The notes under the pieces: model-generated
Databases searched by the model: none
Told to the model about the DNA's origin: nothing
What the model saw: the letters and a program-made list of their open reading frames with translations, nothing else
Program-made: the position numbers and the translations under genes
Source: Candidatus Eisenbacteria bacterium
GTDB lineage: Bacteria > Eisenbacteria > RBG-16-71-46 > CAIMUX01 > JAHJDP01
Direction: 5' to 3'
DNA: 64,000 nucleotides
NCBI GenBank assembly: GCA_018831195.1
Contig: JAHJDP010000002.1
Span: forward strand, 1 to 64,000
In this document: positions 3,059 through 64,000 of the stretch, piece after piece
How the letters are laid out: the number at the start of each line of letters is the position of its first letter
Numbering within the stretch: the stretch's first letter is position 1

Positions 3059-5287
3059 TTATCTGATCACCAGGACCTTCTCTGATTGCGCCTGCTGGCC
3101 GACTTCAAGCCGGGCCAGATAGAGCCCCCCGGCGACAGGTCGATCATTGTCATCACGGCCATCCCAAATAATATTATGCGATCCCCGGTTCAGCTGTTGC
3201 TCTACCAAAGTTCGCACAATTCTCCCGTTGACATTATAAACTTTCAATGACACAACACTGCTATGCGGAAGAGCGAATGAATAGGCTGTTCCGGTGTGCA
3301 TTGGGTTGGGTCCCACATGCAACCCCAGAACCGGATCCACGGATACATTTCTTATATCGGATGTCGGACAATCAAAGGGGCCGAGAAAGTCACATACTTT
3401 CGGAGTCGTATTGTCGTAGGCAACCTGAAGCTCGTCCATCACCGTGGACATCGGTTTATCAGATTCACTGATGCTATACGCTTCAATTTGAATGGCCAGC
3501 TTTTTGGGGAGCCCACAGACTGATATGTCTTCTTCATTGTCCAAAAAGAGAAACTCATCCATTAGATCCGGATCACCATACATAGGCCTGCCGCTCACTA
3601 CTGTCAGCTTCACATCCGCAGCATCGATCTCGAGAAGGGCTTGATACGGATCCTCAGGATCACCGGGAATAACCATGAGATCGGCCTGATAACCCGTCGC
3701 CACTTGGCCTATTCGATCTTCAGCGCCCATGGCATAGGCGGCATTCCTTGTGGCAAAGAGGGCAAAATCCACGGGCTCAATCGTACTGCCCCAGAAAAGT
3801 GTGTTCAATTTGTTGCCATACTGGATTTCCTGCAGCATGTCCCGCGTGCCCGATTCGGTCCAATCCGGTGCAATTGCAACATTCACCCCGGCGAGCAGAG
3901 CGCCCGGAATGTCGGGCGATGCAGCATAAAGGAACATGTCGCTTTTGGGAGACCAGACCAGATTGGCCTCTGCTTCAGCCATGAGTTGCCATTCAGTTGG
4001 ACCGTACGGGATACCATGAAGGATGGTCGTCCGCCAATCCAACATGCCCCATTGCCGCCAGGTATAAAATTCCTGTAAAGCGGCCGCATTGATACCTTCA
4101 GACAAATGGATAACAAATCGATCCCAATACTCCTCTTTCATGTCCTGCCAGTAGTTCATGTCCTCGTCAAGTGGAAATGTCTTCGTATAAATACGACTTG
4201 GAAATCTTTCTGCATTATTTATAACCATTCCCTGCTGGCCGTAAAAATCATCGCTCTCGACGTTGCAGTTTCTTCCTTGCATCATCGTTGTACCGGCACA
4301 AAGCGCTCGCACTTCGGCGACTTTGAAGACATTGCCAATTTGAGCGTTGGTGCCGCCGTAATCTATAATGGCATCAAGCTGATCTCCAAAATCAGAGTAT
4401 ATTGGAGTGATCCGCCACTCATATCGATCCGCAAAGGTTTGCCCGAAAGGAATATGATCCAGAACATTATAAGCTGCGTGATTATGGCCATCGATTAAGC
4501 CGGGGAAAATCAAACCACCGGTCTCAACAAGCAGCAGCTCCCTCGGTGGAGATGATGTGATGCCGATAATTCTGTCGCCCTGGATCTCAATGTATGAATC
4601 CTCGAGAATCTCGAGGGCTGGATTCATCGTCACAATATCTCCCCCTATAACAAAATGCGGTATGATATCGCCCGTTAAGTCCATGGTGTTGCGCGGCTCG
4701 AGTTTATATTGACCGGCGCTATAGTACAAAAACCCGGTCACGGAGGCCAAAGAGTCACCGATTCTGGGAAAGTACATATAGTCGTTTAGGTCATCGCAGC
4801 GAATATCGCCGCTTCCATCGTTGGCTATCCACTCGCCGGCGCCCAAAAGAGATGTCACTGTGAGATCATTGATGCTGAGAAGCACAGATTCATACTGTTC
4901 TTGGGGTGCGTCTGCCGCCCAAACAACCAAGGATCCGATGGAATTGCCGGTCGAGAGAAGGGTATAGCTGGTAATCTCCCACAGTATTGTCATGCCGCTG
5001 ACCTCAATCACCGTACCGCTAATTTCCACCTCATCGCCAATCTGCGGGCCGTTGCTTTGGGAATAGACGTAGACCGCCTGCCAGGGACCGGTCCCTTCGG
5101 CGATCACATACCCGTAATAGGTAATGGCGGAGACGACACCTGAGGTTGTGATGAATTGCCCATTATAGGGGGATACCCCCGATGGATCAGTCGTGTATTG
5201 AATATCATAGACTGCAACCCCTGACACCGCTGTAACCGCAAACAAGATAAGAAGTAAGCTGATTACGGATGCTTGTGTAAATTTCAT
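3059..5287 (-). CDS. Secreted amidohydrolase with OB-like N-terminal and FlgD-like C-terminal domains
   Basis: The start at 5287 is chosen because GGAGG sits eight bases upstream. A signal peptide is followed by a DUF5689/OB-like domain (about residues 25-205), then an amidohydrolase barrel (about 210-600) with the metal motif DGHNH, the HLSEG segment, the ILHG segment and the AIAPDW aspartate motif, so all usual metal and catalytic positions appear present. The last 70 residues form an Ig-like FlgD/Por-type domain (VYNVNGRIVRTLV ... WDGRDDNDRPV) that usually serves in surface attachment or secretion sorting. The likely chemistry is hydrolytic deamination or dechlorination of a heterocycle as in the atrazine chlorohydrolase/cytosine deaminase group, but the substrate is unknown. 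Confidence 0.85.
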   Translation of the reverse strand: MKFTQASVISLLLILFAVTAVSGVAVYDIQYTTDPSGVSPYNGQFITTSGVVSAITYYGYVIAEGTGPWQAVYVYSQSNGPQIGDEVEISGTVIEVSGMTILWEITSYTLLSTGNSIGSLVVWAADAPQEQYESVLLSINDLTVTSLLGAGEWIANDGSGDIRCDDLNDYMYFPRIGDSLASVTGFLYYSAGQYKLEPRNTMDLTGDIIPHFVIGGDIVTMNPALEILEDSYIEIQGDRIIGITSSPPRELLLVETGGLIFPGLIDGHNHAAYNVLDHIPFGQTFADRYEWRITPIYSDFGDQLDAIIDYGGTNAQIGNVFKVAEVRALCAGTTMMQGRNCNVESDDFYGQQGMVINNAERFPSRIYTKTFPLDEDMNYWQDMKEEYWDRFVIHLSEGINAAALQEFYTWRQWGMLDWRTTILHGIPYGPTEWQLMAEAEANLVWSPKSDMFLYAASPDIPGALLAGVNVAIAPDWTESGTRDMLQEIQYGNKLNTLFWGSTIEPVDFALFATRNAAYAMGAEDRIGQVATGYQADLMVIPGDPEDPYQALLEIDAADVKLTVVSGRPMYGDPDLMDEFLFLDNEEDISVCGLPKKLAIQIEAYSISESDKPMSTVMDELQVAYDNTTPKVCDFLGPFDCPTSDIRNVSVDPVLGLHVGPNPMHTGTAYSFALPHSSVVSLKVYNVNGRIVRTLVEQQLNRGSHNIIWDGRDDNDRPVAGGLYLARLEVGQQAQSEKVLVIR

Positions 5288-61234: not shown

Positions 61235-61684
61235 TTACAACCACTTTCTTACATTAGCTTTATACTGCCTGTATTCCTCTCCGAATTGCTCTTCCATGTG
61301 GCGCTCCTCGGGAATCACGAAGGAAACGGAAAACAACCAAAACATTGCCCCGACCAGCACAAGCGGCAGTAGTGTGCCGGCTGCGACTGCAGCTCCGAGA
61401 ACAATCCCCATGAACCCCAGATACATTGGATGCCGGCTAAACCGGAAAGGACCCTCGGCCACAACTAGACTCGACTTCCGGAATGGCTTGACCTCTGTTC
61501 CCAATTTCTTGAACAATGCGTCGGCCCAGACCGTCAGCGCCGCACCGATCAATGCGATAGCGACGCCAACAAGCCGCCACATTCCGAAAATCAACCGAGG
61601 CCCTGACAGCAGAAAGTGTAGCAAACCCATCAAAATAAGCCCAATGAACAGATATGTTGGGGGAAGAATTCGACCGCCGCTCAC
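61235..61684 (-). CDS. Isoprenylcysteine carboxyl methyltransferase-like membrane protein
   Basis: This 149-residue membrane protein has the ICMT/PEMT motif FRFSRHPMYLGF with PEERHMEEQFGEEYRQY at the C terminus, and four membrane segments. It methylates an unknown membrane substrate. I start at GTG 61684, five bases after GGAGG. A longer frame through 61984 crosses an attC-like site and is not credible. The start lies 22 bases after attC-A, so the gene is likely the last cassette of the array or the first gene after it. Confidence 0.82.
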   Translation of the reverse strand: MSGGRILPPTYLFIGLILMGLLHFLLSGPRLIFGMWRLVGVAIALIGAALTVWADALFKKLGTEVKPFRKSSLVVAEGPFRFSRHPMYLGFMGIVLGAAVAAGTLLPLVLVGAMFWLFSVSFVIPEERHMEEQFGEEYRQYKANVRKWL

Positions 61685-61705
61685 TACTTCCTCCTCTCTC
61701 ACGGA

Positions 61706-61836
61706 ACCTAGCGTTCTTCTAACCGGCGAGGTGCGCTTGGCGCGGCCCTCGCCCACTCCACTCGTCGCGCCTATATTATCTCTCACAGGGGGAGGCCGTG
61801 ACAAGGGCCCTCGACGGGTTAATGCGGTCGTTAAAC
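61706..61836 (-). repeat. attC-like recombination site A (integron cassette)
   Basis: The segment is imperfectly palindromic. On the minus strand it opens with GTTTAAC (a match to the RYYYAAC core), and 131 bases later it ends with GCTAGGT (GTTRRRY expected, one mismatch at the second base). Inner arms (TAACCCG at one end, CGGTTAG at the other) are also inverted repeats. It is about 75 percent identical to site B in the same orientation and follows the stop of the 62579 gene by 11 bases. This is the arrangement of an attC site after a cassette gene. Confidence 0.7.
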
Positions 61837-61847
61837 GTTGTGAACAA

Positions 61848-62579
61848 CTAATATAGACTTTTAATCTTACCCCATGATGTGGTTTTTGTTGGCCATGGAG
61901 AACAACGATCTCTAGCCATTTCTCTAATTCCCAAATTCTTACAATTCGGGAAAATTTCATTAATAGGAACCCAGCCTGAACCATAACCTAATCCTGGAAA
62001 GACCTTTGTTGCCGAGCGCGCGTTGGTCGTATCGCTGGCTTCGTCGGCCGCAACATACCAACCTTCTTGTTGATTAAATGGCCAGTTTCCCCAGTATCCC
62101 GCAAAGTGAGCGCCGTCAACGCAACAGTTCATTGAAAGTTGATGTACAGAGATCTCTGGCCATGTCGCAATTGGGCCTGGTTCGATCATTATTCTTGAAC
62201 AGATTATATTACCCGGAATCGGGTTGGGACCGTCCTCCAAAACCGATTGCCAGAGATATAGATCAAGGGTCTGGTTGTCAAATTGACTCCCATCGCTTGT
62301 AAGATACAACTGGATTCCGCAAACGTACGTCGCATCATACCGCTCAGCAAAACAACTATAATCTGGTGGGACGACGCCCTCAAGTCTCCACATATACGCA
62401 TTTTCAAATTGCCCGTCATCATTTTGGAGCAATGTATCTCTTGGGCAAAATTCATCGTTTGGAGGCGGCAAAATCTGAGTATTTTCATGAAAGCCTATAC
62501 TAATGATTGGCTCATCGTCGGCCGCCAAAGGCAAAGCAGAGAAGACTAAAGGCATTAGGAACGCTGCAAATATGTACAT
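61848..62579 (-). CDS. Secreted cysteine-rich protein, unknown function
   Basis: I start at ATG 62579, followed by a signal peptide (YIFAAFLMPLVFSALPLAA). The frame extends to TTG 62621. The protein has paired cysteines (NCCVDG, CFAERYDATYVCG) and the segment FAGYWGNWPFNQQEGWYVAADE, which suggests a beta-sandwich. It ends in TTSWGKIKSLY, matching the tail of the cassette gene at the right edge (TWGRLKSLYDH). It follows the TIR-ATPase gene in one cassette, with the stop 11 bases ahead of attC-A. Confidence 0.65.
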   Translation of the reverse strand: MYIFAAFLMPLVFSALPLAADDEPIISIGFHENTQILPPPNDEFCPRDTLLQNDDGQFENAYMWRLEGVVPPDYSCFAERYDATYVCGIQLYLTSDGSQFDNQTLDLYLWQSVLEDGPNPIPGNIICSRIMIEPGPIATWPEISVHQLSMNCCVDGAHFAGYWGNWPFNQQEGWYVAADEASDTTNARSATKVFPGLGYGSGWVPINEIFPNCKNLGIREMARDRCSPWPTKTTSWGKIKSLY

Positions 62580-62613
62580 AATTCGTTTATCGCCATGATG
62601 GCTCCGCGGGATC

Positions 62614-63630
62614 TCATTCAATTTTCTCGGCCGGATATATCAACCTAACCGTCGTGACATAGGGAGGCCTGGGATCTCCTTCGCCAATCATCCATCTAAC
62701 AGGTTTGCTCTCAACAACAATATCGCCTTTGTATTTCCTACTGATTTCTCTTGCCAACCATAAACCCATTCCCATCCCGCCTGCTGTGTGCTCTTTGGCG
62801 TCTGGCGTTCTAAAGCCCCGCTCGAATATCACTCCACTCTCAATATCTTGCTTTGGGATCCCAACGCCCCAATTCTCGATCTGAATTATGGCTTTGGATC
62901 TTGCCTGCGATGTCGATAACATGACTTTTGATTCCAAATTGCGTCCAGAATAACTGTATTTTATGGCATTATTCAAAACGTTGGCTATGGCCGTAATAAT
63001 TTCTGGCCGCGAGGCTATAACGTGAGCGTTGGGGGCAGTATCCGTAAAGTCTATTATAACATTTCGACGCCGCGCATACTTCCCAAATATCTCAATGGTT
63101 TCACGCACCATCTCCGAGAGATGAACCAGGGTTTTGAGGCGTTTAGGTTTCGCGTTTTCATCTCTTTCTATGACGATATCATCAAGCGGTGTTGGGGTTT
63201 TACTCAGGTCGGCGTGGCCCTGTTCGCCGTCTATAGATCGTATAATTTGATTAACACCGTCTTCCCACCTTGGGAACAGGTCGATCCAATGTAACTCATT
63301 GAGTTTTCGGTACTTTGGTTTGCATTCCATTAGCCTGACCGGAATAAGATAAATTTCGTCGCCTGGAGTTTCCTCCAATACCTCAATCGCCTTTTTAATC
63401 TCTGCTTGCACAACTCCGCGCTTACCAACAGAGGATTTTGATAACAATGCAATAAAATAGTCGGCCCTGCTTATTTCTCTATGAATAACCTCTCGCCAAT
63501 TCTCTCCGCCCCGGAGGTCTTTCTTGTCAAACCAAACACTTATCCCATGCACCCGTAAATCTTTTCGCAAACGATCGGCAGCGGAAGAATCTTCTCGTGC
63601 GTAGCTCAAAAATACTTTCTTTTTTGGCAT
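62614..63630 (-). CDS. TIR domain fused to a histidine-kinase-type ATPase domain
   Basis: Residues 1-135 form a TIR domain (VFLSYAREDSSAADRLRKDL, SVWFDKKDL, WREVIHREISRADYFIALLS) with the predicted catalytic Glu77 in VVQAE. Residues 155-335 form a GHKL/HATPase domain: N box NVLNNAIKYS (217-226), G1-like IENWGVGIP (251-259, N in place of the usual D) and G2 GGMGMGLW (284-291). A histidine near 170 sits where a HisKA phospho-acceptor would be but the surrounding sequence is weak. There is no membrane segment. The gene starts 18 bases after attC-B. A role in NAD-consuming defence or signalling is inferred, not shown. Confidence 0.85.
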   Translation of the reverse strand: MPKKKVFLSYAREDSSAADRLRKDLRVHGISVWFDKKDLRGGENWREVIHREISRADYFIALLSKSSVGKRGVVQAEIKKAIEVLEETPGDEIYLIPVRLMECKPKYRKLNELHWIDLFPRWEDGVNQIIRSIDGEQGHADLSKTPTPLDDIVIERDENAKPKRLKTLVHLSEMVRETIEIFGKYARRRNVIIDFTDTAPNAHVIASRPEIITAIANVLNNAIKYSYSGRNLESKVMLSTSQARSKAIIQIENWGVGIPKQDIESGVIFERGFRTPDAKEHTAGGMGMGLWLAREISRKYKGDIVVESKPVRWMIGEGDPRPPYVTTVRLIYPAEKIE

Positions 63631-63647
63631 TATCTTAATTCCAGTAT

Positions 63648-63777
63648 GTCTAACGTTCTGCTAACCTGCTAGGTGCGCTGGGCGCGGACCTCGCCATCTC
63701 AACTCGTCACGCCAATATAATAGCATTTTGCGGGAGGCGTGACAAGGGCCCTCGTCGGGTTACTGTGGTCGTTAGGT
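63648..63777 (-). repeat. attC-like recombination site B (integron cassette)
   Basis: On the minus strand the site opens ACCTAAC (fits RYYYAAC) and ends GTTAGAC (fits GTTRRRY), 130 bases apart. The inner arms GTAACCCG and AGGTTAGC are also complementary, giving the two-box stem expected for attC. The central segment differs from site A, but the ends and many inner bases agree. The neighbouring gene to the right ends 20 bases before the site and the TIR-ATPase gene starts 18 bases after it, as in a cassette array. Confidence 0.75.
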
Positions 63778-63797
63778 ACAAGGAATTACATGGACAT

Positions 63798-64000
63798 TTA
63801 GTGATCATAAAGACTCTTGAGTCGTCCCCAGGTTATATTGTCTAGACTTGTAAGGCTGTCATTGCAGCTCGAAAAAGTTAAAACGTGGAGACCTCTTAAA
63901 CCCGGATGGCAAGCTGAGTATCCCTGCGCCATTGTTGCATAAACATGTAACGTATCCGGATCAGGAAACGCCTCAGGATTACCAACAACCCAAAACTCAT
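63798..64000 (-). CDS. C-terminal part of a cassette-encoded protein (runs off the window)
   Basis: A minus-strand frame of 66 codons reaches the window edge and has no start in it. It ends with FSSCNDSL, then DNITWGRLKSLYDH and a stop codon 20 bases ahead of attC-B. The tail matches the end of the 61848 protein (TTSWGKIKSLY). The sequence otherwise gives no recognised family, and it may be secreted. Confidence 0.6.
   Translation of the reverse strand, partial: EFWVVGNPEAFPDPDTLHVYATMAQGYSACHPGLRGLHVLTFSSCNDSLTSLDNITWGRLKSLYDH

Follow-up and report, generated by a model that had tools for sequence, protein, structure and literature searches.

Lineage-specific attC sites and a probable chromosomal integron array in a Candidatus Eisenbacteria genome

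The window analysed here, the whole 64,000-nucleotide stretch covering positions 1 to 64000 of contig C2 (which runs to 67142) in a 5.24 Mb Candidatus Eisenbacteria genome of 123 contigs, very probably contains the integrase-distal end of a sedentary chromosomal integron array that was fragmented by the assembly. A chromosomal integron array is a known kind of element, encountered here in an unusual host, and the case documents one in a poorly studied lineage together with one broken integrase, one intact integrase and insertion sequences (IS) that target attC sites. Read in this way, each cassette would consist of an open reading frame (ORF), sometimes two, followed by a lineage-specific attC site of 130 nt; the integron integrase (IntI) would take the folded bottom strand of attC, here the plus strand of the window, as its substrate, and cassettes would be excised and reinserted at attI or at other attC sites.

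Two attC sites in the window

The initial annotation had described two attC-like sites in shared orientation near the right edge of the window, a reading that is supported by a covariance model (R1) based on an alignment of 19 full-length copies, all from the same genome (Table 1). The E-values in the window are 9e-35 for site 1 and 2e-33 for site 2, and although both sites are themselves among the 19 on which R1 was trained, plain BLAST also links them to other sites. The same annotation had put their identity at about 75 percent: the resemblance stands, and it measures 81% over 125 bases (BLAST, E ~1e-26 in the genome). The site bounds in Table 1 are those of the covariance model, while the cores from R'' to R' occupy 61706-61836 and 63648-63777. 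The resulting length of 130-131 bp falls inside the 57-141 bp range of attC sites, which carry an RYYYAAC inverse core and a GTTRRRY core at their ends (PMC3053210). The proposed consensus-like ends are present at the 5' side of both sites and at the 3' side of site 2, but the R' box of site 1 departs from GTTRRRY by one mismatch, which we count against the array reading.

The distances to the flanking genes, all of which lie on the minus strand, are as the initial annotation had given them. At site 2, a stop at 63798 is followed by 20 nt, the site, 17 nt and a start at 63630; at site 1, the corresponding series is a stop at 61848, 11 nt, the site, ~21 nt and a start at 61684. Site 1 is the final site of the array on that side within the 64-kb window as scanned with R1, and beyond the two sites the only R1 score above 17 bits in the window is that of site 1 read in antisense (27 bits). 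Following the attC rule G|TTRRRY, site 2 is predicted to be cut at G|TTAGAC, between 63654 and 63653.

Folding of the single strand gave energy z-scores from -0.2 to -2.8, which by themselves are weak evidence; for site 1, the plus strand of the window, which would be the recombined one, folds better than its complement (-30.2 vs -22.3 kcal/mol). A scan of the window at the Rfam gathering thresholds returned no match, and we know of no attC family in Rfam. A permissive search for R and L boxes by regular expression was dropped because its matches were mostly due to chance.

Table 1 Coordinates of the features discussed (positions without a contig name refer to the window)
Feature	Coordinates	Strand	Basis or remark
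attC site 1	61704..61840	-	R1 covariance model, 118.2 bits
attC site 1 boxes	R'' GTTTAAC 61836-61830; R' GCTAGGT 61712-61706	-	Alignment, structure counts
attC site 2	63646..63781	-	R1 covariance model, 113.9 bits
attC site 2 boxes	R'' ACCTAAC 63777-63771; R' GTTAGAC 63654-63648	-	Alignment, structure counts
Predicted complete two-gene cassette, ~1.94 kb	61712..63653	-	Predicted cleavage points, attC rule G|TTRRRY
Cassette gene 1, 338 aa, N-terminal TIR_2 + HATPase_c	62614..63630	-	Pfam, PADLOC, PDB
Cassette gene 2, 243 aa, signal peptide, no known family	61848..62579	-	Tail TTSWGKIKSLY at 61851-61877
Gene of the next cassette, 3' part	63798..64000 (whole gene C2:63798-64373)	-	Signal peptide; tag NITWGRLKSLYDH at 63807-63833
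PEMT/ICMT-like membrane methyltransferase gene after the last attC	61235..61684	-	Pfam
IS at attC R'' end	C2 right end 67016-67142; C21 6730-7239 (~7.1 kb; L034)		86% identical over the available stretch
IS inside variable terminal part of attC	C21 ~3216-4757 (L034); C106 ~3440-4613 (L037)		Copies 74% identical

Genes of the cassette and its continuation beyond the window

The first gene of the cassette joins a histidine-kinase-like HATPase_c domain directly to a TIR domain, with no HisKA or other phosphoacceptor domain recognised by Pfam. Among solved structures, its closest relatives are histidine kinases over the ATPase part and TIR proteins over the N-terminus, and it is matched by the TIR-effector models of PADLOC; the glutamate in SKSSVGKRGVVQAEI presumably corresponds in position to the catalytic glutamate of TIR NADases. 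For a gene of this composition, a role in phage defence would be plausible, if unproven. The second gene has homologues outside cassettes in the same genome, 37-48% identical and ending in the same class-specific tail (see below). On the far side of site 1, the methyltransferase gene is followed by no further R1 match, so that it may represent a former cassette or belong to the chromosomal flank.

As anticipated, the array extends beyond the right edge of the window. In the 3.1 kb that remain to the end of the contig, attC sites are found at C2:65045, 66034 and 66884, with a degenerate one at C2:64458, bringing C2 to a total of 5-6 sites. Among the ORFs that lie between them are a toxin-antitoxin pair of the ParE/YefM type (65181-65749) and one for a DUF2293 protein. 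Both this pair and the TIR effector in the window are typical cassette cargo and therefore support the attC reading. The other possibility raised by the initial annotation, an intI gene to the right, is not borne out within this contig: no intI was found on C2, the last 3.1 kb included, and the contig breaks inside an IS110-type element. The missing integrase on the same contig likewise counts against the array reading.

We also considered that the two sites in the window might be an attC pair produced by rearrangement, the TIR-HATPase and secreted-protein genes between them being an ordinary chromosomal insertion. Such an origin would accommodate a two-gene cassette, which is unusual, and a segment of 1.94 kb, but it is made very unlikely by the sites lying 11 and 17 nt from the genes, by the common strand, and by the four further sites that follow to the right at similar distances. 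A cassette bounded by two attC sites of one array is thus the reading that we retain.

With at least two attC sites and no neighbouring integrase, C2 classes as a CALIN, the category defined in IntegronFinder by two or more attC sites on a contig that lacks an integrase; integrons are known to be split by draft assemblies into CALIN and In0 elements (PMC9024848). The integrase pseudogene with an attC of the same family on another contig, described below, makes the CALIN status here partly an effect of the assembly. Elsewhere in the genome, type I restriction-modification genes (L041, G000:C51, 6501-11018) and a weakly SIR2-like protein (L166, G000:C115, 8741-9793) directly adjoin attC sites, so the arrays gather defence genes too.

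A family of attC sites across the genome

A DNA search recovered more than 20 relatives of the two window sites in their own genome. Four helices were counted on the 19-site alignment, namely R''/R', L''/L' and two in the variable terminal part, which confirms the inner inverted arms that had been noted for the window pair. RNAalifold on its own recovers the hairpin incompletely, without the R stem, and the structure was therefore assigned manually before counting: over all 19 sites, 88.4% of cells are paired, vs 29-43% after shifting one arm by 1-3 columns (R stem, 82%; L stem, 91%). Changes on both sides were found in six pairs, two of them in R and one in L. Column 28 of L'' is unpaired in all 19 sites with any of the four bases (A, T, C, G), and is the one such column that could be resolved; its position opposite L' would be as expected for an extrahelical base.

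Searching the whole genome with R1 yielded 36 sense-strand matches on 15 contigs at E-values up to 0.01 (the count excludes 14 matches to these sites in antisense, and one site interrupted by an IS contributes its two halves separately to the 36). The sites are arrayed with ORFs between them, head to tail and mostly in cassette orientation, and they include one internal array at C87:68-78 kb. The pairing and double changes in the R and L stems, these arrayed matches and an integrase gene scoring 441 bits (see below) together argue for attC.

One broken and one intact integrase

The initial annotation described an array without visible integrase, which holds for contig C2 and fails for the organism: the search for intI that it had proposed found two genes in the genome, one on C69 and one on C65. 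The former (L032, G000:C69, 1105-2091) encodes a full-length IntI of 328 aa that scores 441 bits with TIGR02249, whose cut-off is 265, and aligns end to end with PDB 2A3V, including the IntI-specific extra region. With all catalytic segments in its ORF, it is apparently intact. No R1-type attC was found near this gene, and a short attC candidate beside it (C69:99-150) is not claimed, as its core pattern arises in 2.7% of shuffles.

The second intI (L033, G000:C65, 3310-4370) is a pseudogene. Compared with the protein of a relative (G003:C8, 62% identical), its frame skips from FVFPSS to SVETTMIYTHV, a loss of ~66 residues plus a frameshift. The missing stretch includes HTLRHSF and LLGHR, which hold the catalytic HxxR and H, and these catalytic positions are therefore absent. 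The layout on C65 is canonical, with intI divergent from the array and an attC of the family alongside (2226-2360) whose R1 score is the best in the genome; a candidate attI core, GTTAGAT, lies at ~3074, just before the first cassette gene. That a broken intI stands beside the best-scoring site, in the canonical divergent layout, is a further argument for the attC reading.

The C65 integron, with its intI, candidate attI and cassettes in the same orientation, appears to be the head of the array whose far end is in the window. As C2 ends in an IS, this link is an inference, which also counts against the array reading, and the contig ends of C2 and C65 have no k-mers in common. The C65 integron itself would be dead: without the segment carrying HxxR and H, it has probably ceased to move cassettes, barring action of the C69 IntI in trans.

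The latter scenario deserves consideration. In it, C2 would be a dynamic CALIN, in which the C69 IntI, of another lineage than that of C65, moves cassettes in trans and the arrays are scattered and alive. The complete C69 ORF with all its catalytic segments speaks for it, as do the R1-type attC sites that accompany C69-type integrases in relatives (G009:C20, G004:C285 and L061) and the spread of sites over 15 contigs, including the internal array on C87. Set against this are the lack of an R1-type site near C69 intI and the identity of only ~42% between the two integrases, each of whose lineages has relatives in the same class. We regard trans mobilization as a possibility to be taken seriously, if a somewhat doubtful one, and continue to favour a sedentary array headed by C65.

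Among the relatives, G009:C20 and G004:C285 and, weakly, G007:C394 have C69-type intI genes that share their strand with R1-type attC sites, the array being 3' of intI. The same-strand layout recurs in L061, a Candidatus Krumholzibacteriia contig and the only one with R1-type sites out of 80 named intI loci that span many phyla. This restricted occurrence suggests a host related to Krumholzibacteriia. Genomes of the same order carry R1-type sites beside intI as well; together with L061, they support the attC reading. In our literature search, Krumholzibacteriota and integron were not named together in any paper. The arrangement in G009, G004, G007 and L061 resembles that of Treponema, whose atypical integron has intI facing its array (PMC3607928), in contrast to the canonical divergent layout of C65.

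With the sedentary chromosomal integrons of Vibrio (the superintegron with its VCR sites), Xanthomonas and Treponema, the present system shares a homogeneous family of long attC sites, ORF-attC arrays in one orientation, a toxin-antitoxin pair, defence-like cargo and an intI gene in the genome. It differs from them in that its own intI, next to an attC of the same family, is broken while one of another lineage is intact, in the distribution of sites over 15 contigs, and in the many cassettes with tagged exported proteins.

A C-terminal tail on exported proteins

The tag that ends both cassette gene 2 and the gene of the next cassette belongs to a large set: ~60 exported proteins of the genome end in TWGxIKSxY. 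At the DNA level, the pattern [TS]WGx[ILV]KxxY occurs at 61 places in the genome and at none when read backwards. A stop codon follows the motif within 0-5 residues in 62 of the 63 ORFs collected, nearly all of which, where long enough to judge, begin with a hydrophobic, signal-peptide-like segment. Sixty tails give the consensus P-T-P-[TAV]-[KR]-E-T-T-W-G-S-I-K-S-[LI]-Y, in looser form PTPxxxT[TS]WGx[ILV]KSxY, and the 54 longer tagged proteins fall into 22 groups by similarity of their bodies. The pattern was present in 37 of the 39 genomes searched (this one and relatives of the same class). None of its six literal forms tried occurred in the literature searched, and no NCBIfam model reported the tail among the proteins scanned. 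It has the look of a class-wide C-terminal signal for sorting or processing, apparently undescribed.

The tags are concentrated in the integron, with 11 of the 61 in ~49 kb of array (bounds set by us) where 0.57 were expected, a ~20-fold enrichment (Poisson P ~3e-11). On this basis we tentatively propose that the integron of this lineage is preferentially stocked with genes of exported proteins bearing a class-wide, undescribed C-terminal sorting tag (P-T-P-x-x-x-T-W-G-x-I-K-S-x-Y-end), an idea to which we give somewhat less than even weight. If true, the cassettes would be drawn from, and serve, the secretome of the host lineage itself, and the array would be an exchangeable library of surface or secreted proteins, phage defence forming its second cargo. 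The origin of cassette genes is a long-standing question; as cassette gene 2 has homologues outside cassettes with the same tail, recruitment from the host lineage is testable by phylogeny. In our view, of all these results the tail most deserves to be pursued.

Mobile elements at attC sites

IS110-family transposases (Pfam DEDD_Tnp_IS110 and Transposase_20) are found at two fixed points of attC, with two copies at each (Table 1), and one of them, at C21 ~3.2-4.76 kb, splits a single attC into two halves. IS1111/IS110 elements with one end of attC as their target have been described before (PMC11187229, citing Post and Hall 2009 and Tetu and Holmes 2008). The copies at the R'' end on C2 and C21 are alike in this respect, whereas the second type, inside the variable terminal part on C21 and C106, differs from these elements. 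Insertion at two fixed attC points, as in known attC-targeting IS1111 elements, supports the attC reading.

The insertions also bear on whether the sites are simply a dispersed palindromic repeat (REP- or terminator-like) or a repeat derived from an IS, bare of any relation to integrons. Imperfectly palindromic copies, several of which carry IS110 elements, might suggest as much, but the IS interrupt attC sites, which must therefore be older than the insertions, and the head-to-tail order, intervening ORFs, prevailing cassette orientation, R/L box architecture and adjacency to intI, here and again in relatives, render such a repeat exceedingly improbable. The contrary outcome named in the initial annotation (no covariance match, no cassettes or integrase nearby, copies dispersed at random) is accordingly not the one observed, its covariance check having been run with a model from the same genome that matches both window sites and more to the right.

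Group II introns were the subject of two minor observations. An apparent reverse-transcriptase end at C65:1-241, noticed by eye, was set aside, as Pfam gave no confirmation and Rfam no intron there. On C37 (L036, G000:C37, 7-173), Rfam RF02001 matches a group II intron with 136 bits at the start of the contig, 0.8 kb from an attC site, and this intron possibly targets attC.
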